A stretch of 64,000 nt of DNA from NCBI GenBank assembly GCA_021648525.1, contig JAKISP010000005.1, positions 1 to 64,000 on the forward strand, written 5' to 3'. The notes under the pieces are model-generated. The model saw only the letters and a program-made list of their open reading frames with translations. It was not told where the DNA came from and made no database searches. The stretch comes from Gammaproteobacteria bacterium (GTDB lineage: Bacteria; Pseudomonadota; Gammaproteobacteria; SZUA-140). The position numbers and the translations under genes are program-made. This document shows, one piece after another, positions 2,656 to 4,434 of the stretch; positions within the stretch are counted from its first letter, which is position 1, and every line of letters begins with the position of its first letter.

Positions 2656-2769
2656 ATATCAGTGACACCTTGGGAGGGGTTCATCACGCTTGTTTAATCT
2701 AATCTCCTAAAATAAATACAATTCACTCTCTAACTTGATGTAAAATCAGCGCTGCGGGCCGCATGGCTC

Positions 2770-2925
2770 GCCGGGGCTTTACAACTCTGTACAAGGACGG
2801 TTGGTATGACCGTTTAAAACATACCGTCTTTTCGACCTGTTATGGCCGGGAGACGGTAGCGTATGTCCAAGGCTTCGGCCCAAAAGTTGCCGTGGTCGTC
2901 CTTGTACGACTTGTAAACTCCCGGC
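2770..2925 (+). ncRNA. Candidate structured RNA leader (nested inverted repeats)
   Basis: The arms 2770-2799 and 2897-2925 are complementary over about 28 positions with few mismatches (GCCGGG..TTTACAA..GTACAAGGACG against its reverse complement). Inside lie GGTATG/CATACC, ACCGTCT/AGACGGT and GGC-TTCG-GCC; the last is a classic UUCG tetraloop hairpin. Such nesting suggests a folded transcript ahead of the ORF at 2976. I cannot match it to a named RNA family. A transposon-derived hairpin is the main alternative. Confidence 0.4.
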
Positions 2926-2975
2926 CGCCATTAATTTGGTGGCTTTGTTTTCATCTGAACAGGGAGAAACAGGCC

Positions 2976-3224
2976 ATGGCCGACCAATCTACTACTGGCG
3001 CTCAAGAGAGAGAAGCACCTGATCAGGATTTGCTTTATACAAACCCCCTGCTTAGCAATAACACTCAGACAGATGAGGTACGTGCTGTTTTAGCGCTACT
3101 GACACACCTTGATTTAAACGATTCCACATTAGGGAATGAAGGCAGCTATGGTCTCATCCTGATTCATGAGTGGTTACGTCGCTCCATGGCATACGCTGAC
3201 CATAAAAACAGGCTGCCCCGTTAA
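2976..3224 (+). CDS. Small hypothetical protein (82 residues)
   Basis: The frame is open from 2763, but I place the start at the ATG at 2976 because AGGGAGAAAC lies just upstream and because the DNA before it is strongly self-complementary and unlikely to code. The product begins MADQSTTGAQEREAPDQ, is acidic at the N-terminus, and ends with a helical stretch (SYGLILIHEWLRRSMAYA). There is no signal peptide and no motif I recognise. It is the only plus-strand ORF in this accessory block. Function unknown; a small regulator or antitoxin-like protein is possible but unsupported. Confidence 0.45.
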   Translation: MADQSTTGAQEREAPDQDLLYTNPLLSNNTQTDEVRAVLALLTHLDLNDSTLGNEGSYGLILIHEWLRRSMAYADHKNRLPR

Positions 3225-3267
3225 CAGGCTTTTCTGGTCTTTAAATTTGTAAGTAAAGCAGTGACTT

Positions 3268-3372
3268 TTATTTTTGGTAGTAGTTGAGTTGGCGCACCAC
3301 ACGTAGAATGTTCGCTTCATACCTGGCCACCTCTTTGGCATTGCGGCCATGCGTTGCCCCTTTTATGCTTTC
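3268..3372 (-). pseudogene. Unidentified coding relic downstream of fic
   Basis: Past the Fic stop codon, another minus-strand frame reads VESIKGATHGRNAKEVARY and continues EANILRVVRQLNYYQK to a TAA at 3268-3270. It looks like protein-coding sequence (helical, charged) and overlaps the Fic 3' end in a different frame. It may be the end of a longer gene fused here by deletion, or the natural Fic C-terminus displaced by a frameshift. I do not recognise the family. Confidence 0.3.
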
Positions 3373-3854
3373 AACAAGATAAAGTGTTCGACCAGCCGAA
3401 TCATCAGCGCTTTTTCTTCCGCCTGACTTCCTGCCACCAGTAGCGCCAATGCCACCAGGGTATTGTCTTTAATCAACGCTTCAACGGGTTTAGCCAACAG
3501 GTGTTGATTGATGCGCAAGTACCACAAAAACAGCAACGAACCACTGCGTTTATTACCATCTGTCAGCGGGTGATTTTTAATCACAAAATAGCGCAGATGC
3601 GCCGCCCGGCTGGCCACGTTAGGGTAAAACAGCTCATCGCCAAACCCTTGTTCAATCGTAGCAATGGCCGAAGCTAAACCATCGCCCCGTAGTTGGCCAA
3701 ACAACGCGCTTGCCTCACCTTTTTGAATCAGCTCCTGCTTAAGCTGAGCAATCGCGGTGAGGGCATCGGGTAAATTCAGCGCCGGCATGTCGCCTTGTCT
3801 CGCCGTCAGTTCACTCAGGTTCTGCTCATCATAACCCTGAACGGGCGTAATCAC
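3363..3854 (-). CDS. Fic/Doc-family protein (domain split from RhuM)
   Basis: The 163-residue product carries the Fic signature HPLTDGNKRSG at residues 95-105. Classical AMP-transferring Fic enzymes have HxFx(D/E)GNGRxxR. Here Lys replaces the second Gly, as in Doc, a Fic-fold kinase of EF-Tu, so phosphotransfer is a possible activity (inference). The GTG start overlaps the RhuM stop by GTGA. In many bacteria RhuM and Fic form one polypeptide, so these are probably two halves of a former fusion separated by a frameshift and small deletion, although coupled translation could still make both. No antitoxin gene is evident beside it. Confidence 0.75.
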   Translation of the reverse strand: MITPVQGYDEQNLSELTARQGDMPALNLPDALTAIAQLKQELIQKGEASALFGQLRGDGLASAIATIEQGFGDELFYPNVASRAAHLRYFVIKNHPLTDGNKRSGSLLFLWYLRINQHLLAKPVEALIKDNTLVALALLVAGSQAEEKALMIRLVEHFILLKA

Positions 3855-4324
3855 TGATTACCGCCAGCACCGCTCACTAATTGCTGATTTGCCAGCGTAC
3901 TCGACAGCAAGGCAATGGCCTGCTCAAATTCAATGCCGCGCTCTTGCAAACGCTGCTGGTTAAGGGTGTAGCTTTCGATTAGGTGTTGTTTCAGTATATT
4001 GCTTGCCCACTGACGAAACTGCACCCCCCGCTGGGATTTCACCCGATAGCCCACCGAGATAACCACATCCAGATTAAACTGTTGAATATCATATGTTTTT
4101 TCATCATCGGCAGTATGTGCAAATTTTGCACATACTGAATCGCGCACTAACTCACCCTAGTTAAAGATGCTGTTAATATGCTTCGTAATTACCGAACGTT
4201 CACGACCGAACAGCTCAGACATCTGTGCCTGGGACAGCCACACAGTTTCGTGATCGAGAGATGCATCTAACCGCACCACACCATCGACAGATTGAAATAT
4301 TTGGATTTGATTGTTTTTTAGCAT
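3851..4324 (-). pseudogene. RhuM-family protein, copy B, amber-interrupted
   Basis: From the ATG at 4322-4324 the frame reads MLKNNQIQIFQSVDG and a helix-turn-helix-like segment, meets TAG at 4157-4159, then continues in frame as GELVRDSVCAKFAHTADD through ISVGYRVKSQRGVQFRQWAS to a TGA at 3851-3853. The order matches RhuM proteins exactly. Without the amber codon the product would be about 157 residues. The distal part could alternatively start at a GTG at 4147, giving 98 residues. The same TAG is present in copy A. The stop overlaps the start of the Fic ORF. Confidence 0.8.
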
Positions 4325-4434
4325 GTCACTCACGCCCTGTGGTTAACCATCGTAATGTTCCTTTTTCTCTTGCACTAATTTCACTATCTTTTTTACCTTA
4401 ACCAGAGCCTAAGGCAAGGGAAACCGGTTTTCTT
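4043..4434. repeat. Direct repeat copy B
   Basis: This is the partner of 1-391. It includes the RhuM N-terminal half and about 110 bp upstream. The match ends at about 4434, exactly where the truncated nucleotidyltransferase frame stops, so this is a recombination junction. Confidence 0.9.

Follow-up and report, generated by a model that had tools for sequence, protein, structure and literature searches.

Introduction

The CI RNA of satellite phage P4 has seqA and seqC as its pairing partners and brings about termination (PMC4825925). RNase P cuts the C4 RNA of phages P1 and P7 before a GG, 5' of the first stem, and this RNA masks a ribosome site (PMC5320573); both RNAs act in trans (PMC4825925, PMC5320573). 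A further small RNA, sRNA-Xcc1 of Xanthomonas campestris (Rfam family RF02221), was seen on Northern blots as an 88-nt RNA in Xanthomonas (PMC2996969), and is described as an RNA that acts in trans and for which many targets have been predicted (PMC2996969, PMC12189769). Published accounts describe it either as trans-acting or as merely placed upstream of symE (PMC12444791, PMC12189769), and one of them treats it as virulence-linked, with hundreds of predicted targets and a proposed action in plant hosts (PMC12189769). In Xylella fastidiosa Temecula1, a single genomic island holds five sRNA-Xcc1 copies, spaced at ~381 bp (PMC12189769); that spacing would fit tandem units of a leader plus a small ORF. 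Our search for literature naming both sRNA-Xcc1 and C4 found only one paper, which lists them as separate annotations.

Here we analyze a folded segment, positions 2745-2980, in the first 64,000 nt of contig JAKISP010000005.1 of a gammaproteobacterial genome (assembly GCA_021648525.1; lineage SZUA-140). This whole 64,000-nt stretch is referred to below as the window.

Results

A conserved leader in front of a small protein gene

An earlier note on this DNA had described nested inverted repeats ahead of an 82-residue ORF and had held the density of complementary segments to exceed chance. Both observations hold: the arms lie at 2770-2787/2908-2925 (83% complementary) and at 2789-2799/2897-2907 (11/11), and the RNA fold of 2745-2980 has a predicted energy of -96.3 kcal/mol, as compared with -76.9 +/- 4.9 kcal/mol for shuffled controls (z -3.93; 0/200 shuffles as good). 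The complement strand of the same segment folds equally well (z -4.57), and the strand is therefore not given by folding alone. The 5' hairpin, P0, has base pairs that change from A-U to G-U in homologues, in keeping with a + strand RNA, and the small-RNA fold described below contains many G-U pairs on the + strand across 33 sequences. Because a + strand G-U pair is an A-C mismatch on the other strand, these pairs support a + strand RNA.

Whether homologues always precede the same small ORF, a question raised by the note, is answered by the window-type loci, at 8/8 of which a related ORF (79-95 aa) follows the RNA. Three of these leader-plus-ORF copies are in the window genome, the further two at 78% and 73% identity over ~470 bp; three are in another genome of the same genus (G003); and two more are in a gammaproteobacterial MAG (L026) and in genome G095 (L058). 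The leader is absent from 8/9 other genomes of the genus, and its presence is thus patchy. The note had described the 82-aa ORF as having a good ribosome site; both ORF and Shine-Dalgarno site are real, and the dN/dS values (Table 1) indicate purifying selection on the small protein. When 369 genomes of the class were searched with a profile of the protein, only the window genome and G095 contained it, always behind the RNA; it has no match in Pfam, NCBIfam, PHROG or PADLOC, and a search of viral contigs found no relatives. AlphaFold2 predicts a helical protein with moderate confidence (mean pLDDT 68). A translated leader was rejected: in homologues, stops and shifts of frame interrupt the 153-aa ORF that runs from an ATG at 2763 through the leader (2763-2975). 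We conclude that the folded stretch is the conserved RNA leader of a small protein gene.

An inverted repeat of this kind could instead serve DNA mobility, as a transposon end, a MITE or a recombination site, and the note had likewise suggested the folded end of an unknown element. Several features of the locus would fit such an element. An integrase relic, as the note had proposed, is a plausible reading of the sequence upstream (minus strand, ...LLLGHTKLESTVRYLGVEVDDALEMAEETEA*; phrog_216 integrase, E 0.0056), direct repeats lie nearby, related RNAs occur in integron cassettes with attC-like flanks (L011, L016, L024), and two copies, C1 (the window copy) and C64, share 588 bp in unrelated flanks. 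However, the arms, at 2770 and 2925, are internal to the leader-plus-ORF unit, whose borders lie near 2696-2735 and 3193-3282 (most other copy pairs share ~440-480 bp, from just 5' of the leader to about the ORF end), and the base changes include G-U pairs specific to the + strand. For these reasons a transposon end, a MITE or attC was rejected. No match to a transposon end was seen, searches of phage and plasmid records gave no match, and the sole DNA-pattern match in viral contigs (L029) looks like a chance match. We accordingly give the DNA-element reading next to no credence: the pieces of the supposed element end correspond to an antisense RNA and its target.

As regards the surroundings, a direct repeat of a broken RhuM-type gene (1-391/4043-4434; 98% over 300 bp and 92% over a further 72 bp) flanks the leader region and suggests a duplication or an insertion. 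The - strand carries a broken Fic/RhuM gene in pieces (3363-4333), the Fic piece of which has a match in PADLOC, to the candidate defence family PDC-S23 (E 4e-76), and, at 692-2173, a gene for a 493-aa pentapeptide-repeat protein (nine copies; membrane-like C-terminal part).

A divergent relative of sRNA-Xcc1 within the leader

The only Rfam match is to RF02221, sRNA-Xcc1, at 2844-2934, with a score of 35.5 bits, below the curated cutoff of 53; sister window-type copies score 38-43 bits, likewise below the cutoff. The match covers the full-length model (1-87), including its closing stem, inner hairpin, loop hairpin and single strand, and our own covariance model, R1, gives the window 55.2 bits (E 5.8e-8), a score obtained with the window inside the training set. 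The small-RNA fold covaries, with changes on both sides in 9/12 pairs across 33 sequences that include members of the eight-copy subfamily. We conclude from these sequence comparisons that the window RNA is a divergent, below-cutoff relative of RF02221.

Table 1. Features of the leader and the ORF behind it (positions in the window).
Feature	Coordinates	Strand	Remarks
Possible extended -10 promoter element, TGATGTAAA	2736..2744	+	Weak; TGATGTAAA or TGAGGTAAA in 7/8 copies, alignments read by eye
5' hairpin P0, GCGGGCC-GCAT-GGCTCGC	2754..2771	+	Pairs kept in homologues
Target X: hairpin CGGGG/CTCTG with b1 (TTTACAA, 2778-2784) in the loop, then a1 (GTACAAGG, 2789-2796)	2772..2796	+	
Hairpin CGGT/ACCG	2798..2812	+	Pairs kept; without U run; relatives have an early terminator at this place
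Putative antisense small RNA, sRNA-Xcc1-like	2844..2930 (3' end ~2930)	+	RF02221 match, pairs covary
Small RNA part A	2844-2852	+	
Small RNA hairpin stem, with a' (CCTTGTAC, 2900-2907)	2894-2899/2906-2911	+	
Small RNA part b' (TTGTAAA)	2911-2917	+	
Small RNA part A'	2918-2926	+	
GCCA tail of small RNA	2927-2930	+	
Intrinsic-terminator-like hairpin and U-rich tract ahead of ORF	2923..2953	+	Kept in 8/8 copies
Shine-Dalgarno site GGGAG	2962..2966	+	Sequence
82-aa ORF, new helical protein family	2976..3224	+	dN/dS 0.07-0.30

RNAs of the RF02221 type occur in 25/369 sampled genomes of the class, in 25/272 genera, and we extracted 38 such loci with their flanks for comparison. At most of the 38, an ORF of ~45-150 aa with a ribosome site lies within ~30-65 nt downstream. 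The proteins behind the RNAs are diverse, comprising SymE in integron cassettes (PF08845) and others without a known family; at L030, the next gene belongs to the SymE family (PF08845, E 1.8e-12). G003 carries, beside its three window-type copies, the three integron-cassette copies named above, each an RNA with a SymE-like gene. Loci of the sRNA-Xcc1 type may also be linked to Pseudomonas DUF3077 genes; the PF11275 profile gave 0 matches in the 369 genomes and 0 matches in the control genomes as well.

On comparison of the 38 loci, the long stem of the fold resolves into what reads as a small RNA and its target, X, upstream of it. The small RNA consists of A, an inner hairpin, Y and A' and is closed by A:A'; within Y, a' occupies a hairpin loop and b' is single-stranded, and Y is complementary to X. 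Many relatives carry b and a a second time, as X', over the Shine-Dalgarno site of the gene that follows (for example, in the SymE integron cassettes); X' was sought by sequence in the window branch and was not found there. The U run of an early terminator after X is present at 22/38 loci and at 0/6 window-type copies in that set. At L031, L033, L043 and similar loci, the loop of this early terminator (CACCCGACAG), between X and A, is complementary to A (GTCGGGTG in L031).

Two details of the earlier note stand in part. Its UUCG tetraloop is present in the window, as a GGC-TTCG-GCC hairpin at 2871-2880, but is lost in homologues. Its statement that a terminator does not explain the structure is wrong for the 3'-most stem (2923-2944, tail TTGTTTTCAT), an intrinsic-terminator-like hairpin that homologues keep, and right for the rest: only this last hairpin is terminator-like, and a simple terminator as the whole explanation was therefore rejected.

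Perfect covariation of antisense segments with the target in the same leader

The note had named covariance in homologues as a check, and it is observed both for the base pairs of the fold and, perfectly, for target and antisense segments. In the eight window-type copies, 64/64 a1:a' positions and 56/56 b1:b' positions are paired, across five a types and three b types, and exchange of types among the copies breaks pairs (leaving 6.0/8 paired for a and 5.5/7 for b). Because MAFFT misplaces a gap in a1 (alignments A6, A7), segments cut by hand and verified against the sequences were used for counting the pairs. Of the pairs that X forms with its partner, Y, 10 show changes on both of their sides across seven copies. 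The three copies of the window genome share some a and b types. The a and b types are differently combined among C1, C64, C53, C30 and C12 (C53 and C30, for example, have the same a and a different b), and the two segments look as if they change independently of each other.

The result extends beyond the window type. With duplex energies corrected for row and column effects, native X:Y energies at 24 unrelated loci are lower than all 20,000 random re-pairings, and native Y:X' energies are likewise below all 20,000 permutations. For the window, the X:Y duplex has an energy of -37.2 kcal/mol, versus -20.6 +/- 3.7 kcal/mol with swapped partners (0/32 swaps as good). Among the 24 loci, the window ranks first for X:Y and sixth for Y:X', the latter in line with its having no visible X'. 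An X:Y excess was not seen at the weak RF02221 relatives L013, L038, L046 and L047.

These findings bear on the published reading of sRNA-Xcc1, by which the RNA acts in trans on unrelated mRNAs and its position in a leader is incidental. The description of sRNA-Xcc1 as an RNA with many targets speaks for that reading, but the targets in question are computational predictions (PMC2996969, PMC12189769), and at every divergent locus the variable segments match the leader of the locus itself and, in relatives, also the ribosome site of the gene that follows. We consider this reading very improbable.

Predicted release and action of the small RNA

Predicted folds differ with the length of the RNA: the full-length RNA favours X:Y, and the RNA from 2844 favours A:A' (0.97). 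The closing stem begins at the start of the RF02221 model, which is based on mapped sRNA, and an RCC follows the stem at 27/38 loci, as in RNase P substrates. Given the fold preferences and the 88-nt RNA of Xanthomonas (PMC2996969), release of the small RNA is the simplest account. The leader thus appears, as judged from sequence, to release a short antisense RNA that matches its own upstream leader, in a layout like that of P4 immunity RNA. The earlier note had offered a structured leader RNA and a small RNA as alternatives; both are supported, and together they make a leader that is probably cut to yield a small RNA.

In our preferred reading, which we regard as probable, the 82-aa gene has this segment as its leader, and the segment contains a self-targeting, C4/CI-like antisense RNA that silences the gene. 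The transcript would start near 2750 and carry the target X first; a sigma-70 scan called no promoter at the candidate -10 element (2736..2744). The small RNA, from 2844 to ~2930, would close by A:A' and expose a' and b', which match X exactly; it would be released from the transcript, probably by an RNase P cut before the GG at 2844; and, once freed, it would pair with X of new transcripts and keep the gene silent. We infer, in this scheme, transcription, processing by RNase P, action in trans and the direction of the effect.

The output of pairing would differ between branches. In many relatives, a' and b' also match the second target, over the Shine-Dalgarno site, such that translation could be blocked. 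The window branch has neither X' nor the early U run, and a terminator-like hairpin stands before the gene; control there is therefore probably by termination, which pairing would most likely favour at the hairpin 2923-2953. A switch of this terminator by pairing at X is a proposal, against which it speaks that the hairpin is able to form alongside X:Y in the predicted fold, and thus in both states.

The same elements could be arranged as a purely cis-acting leader switch, resembling an attenuator or a riboswitch, in which X:Y versus A:A' decides termination or translation and no free antisense RNA is made. Such a switch would make use of the mutually exclusive or pseudoknotted X:Y and A:A' pairings, of the different folds of full-length and shortened RNA, of the competition of X' copies over the ribosome site with X for Y, and of the terminator ahead of the gene. 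However, the a and b segments vary freely on a constant scaffold, unlike a ligand-binding pocket; the homologous RNA is a separate 88-nt species in Xanthomonas (PMC2996969); and trans-action is described for the P4 and C4 RNAs, whose layout is the same (PMC4825925, PMC5320573). We therefore judge a switch confined to its own transcript to be unlikely, and retain the reading with a released antisense RNA.

Discussion

The covariation reported here indicates that the direct target of sRNA-Xcc1 is the leader that carries it, joined in many cases by the ribosome site of the small gene that follows. It thereby offers a testable explanation for a widespread family whose direct target has so far been unclear, and makes its function testable with one reporter. 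It also connects the SymE cassettes of integrons with an antitoxin-like RNA on the same strand, and carries RNA immunity of the P4/C4 kind over to chromosomal and integron genes in many genera. The parts are already known; their combination was not found in the available sRNA-Xcc1 literature, the main RNA Biol 2011 paper being outside that scope.

More tentatively, and as a possibility that we hold to be somewhat less than even, sRNA-Xcc1-type RNAs may be a widespread, portable self-immunity module of Gammaproteobacteria, in which one RNA scaffold serves small proteins of unrelated kinds, SymE toxins among them, and each locus has an a/b code to itself. A resident copy would silence any newcomer with the same code, so that only a naive recipient would express the protein; the window branch would have shifted its output from ribosome-site masking to transcription termination.

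The closest described system is sRNA-Xcc1 itself. The window locus shares with RF02221 the small-RNA fold, the place before a small ORF and an X upstream, and sister loci in G003 score above the cutoff. It differs in its score, 35.5 bits against the cutoff of 53; in having neither X' over the ribosome site nor the early-terminator U run; in having a terminator ahead of the ORF; and in its protein, which is not SymE. The Rfam model of RF02221 spans A to A' only and leaves the targets out.

Comparison with SymE/SymR, a type I toxin-antitoxin system of E. coli, is suggested by the several relatives of the window RNA that precede a SymE-family gene and can pair with its ribosome site. However, SymR is encoded on the strand opposite to symE, whereas the RNA here is on the same strand, in the leader, and the window protein is not SymE.

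For CI and C4, no homology was detected by sequence and structure, as neither covariance model finds the other: RF01695 gave no match to the window up to E 10 and none to 12 relatives up to E 0.5, and, in the reverse search, R1 misses P4 C4. The comparison is therefore one of working like P4 CI/C4 rather than of membership. The window type differs from CI/C4 in its host, a chromosome and not a prophage, and, in the window branch, in the missing second downstream target (ribosome site or terminator), which many relatives have. For release by RNase P, the window offers a compatible sequence, the GG at 2844. In common with CI/C4 (RF01695; c4-a1b1, RF03163; isrK, RF01394), the window type has a closing stem that begins with GG and ends with CC, and its a' and b' match an upstream target within the same transcript. 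The Rfam consensus structures of C4 and sRNA-Xcc1 have their elements in the same order. Phage P4, in which Rfam marks c4-a1b1, isrK and C4, served as positive control: its segments run b1 (GTGAGAA), a1 (TTCACAGG), a' (CCTGTGAA) and b' (TTCTCAC), with b again downstream, and, as in the window type, b1 lies in a hairpin loop, a1 follows, a' lies in a loop and b' is single-stranded.
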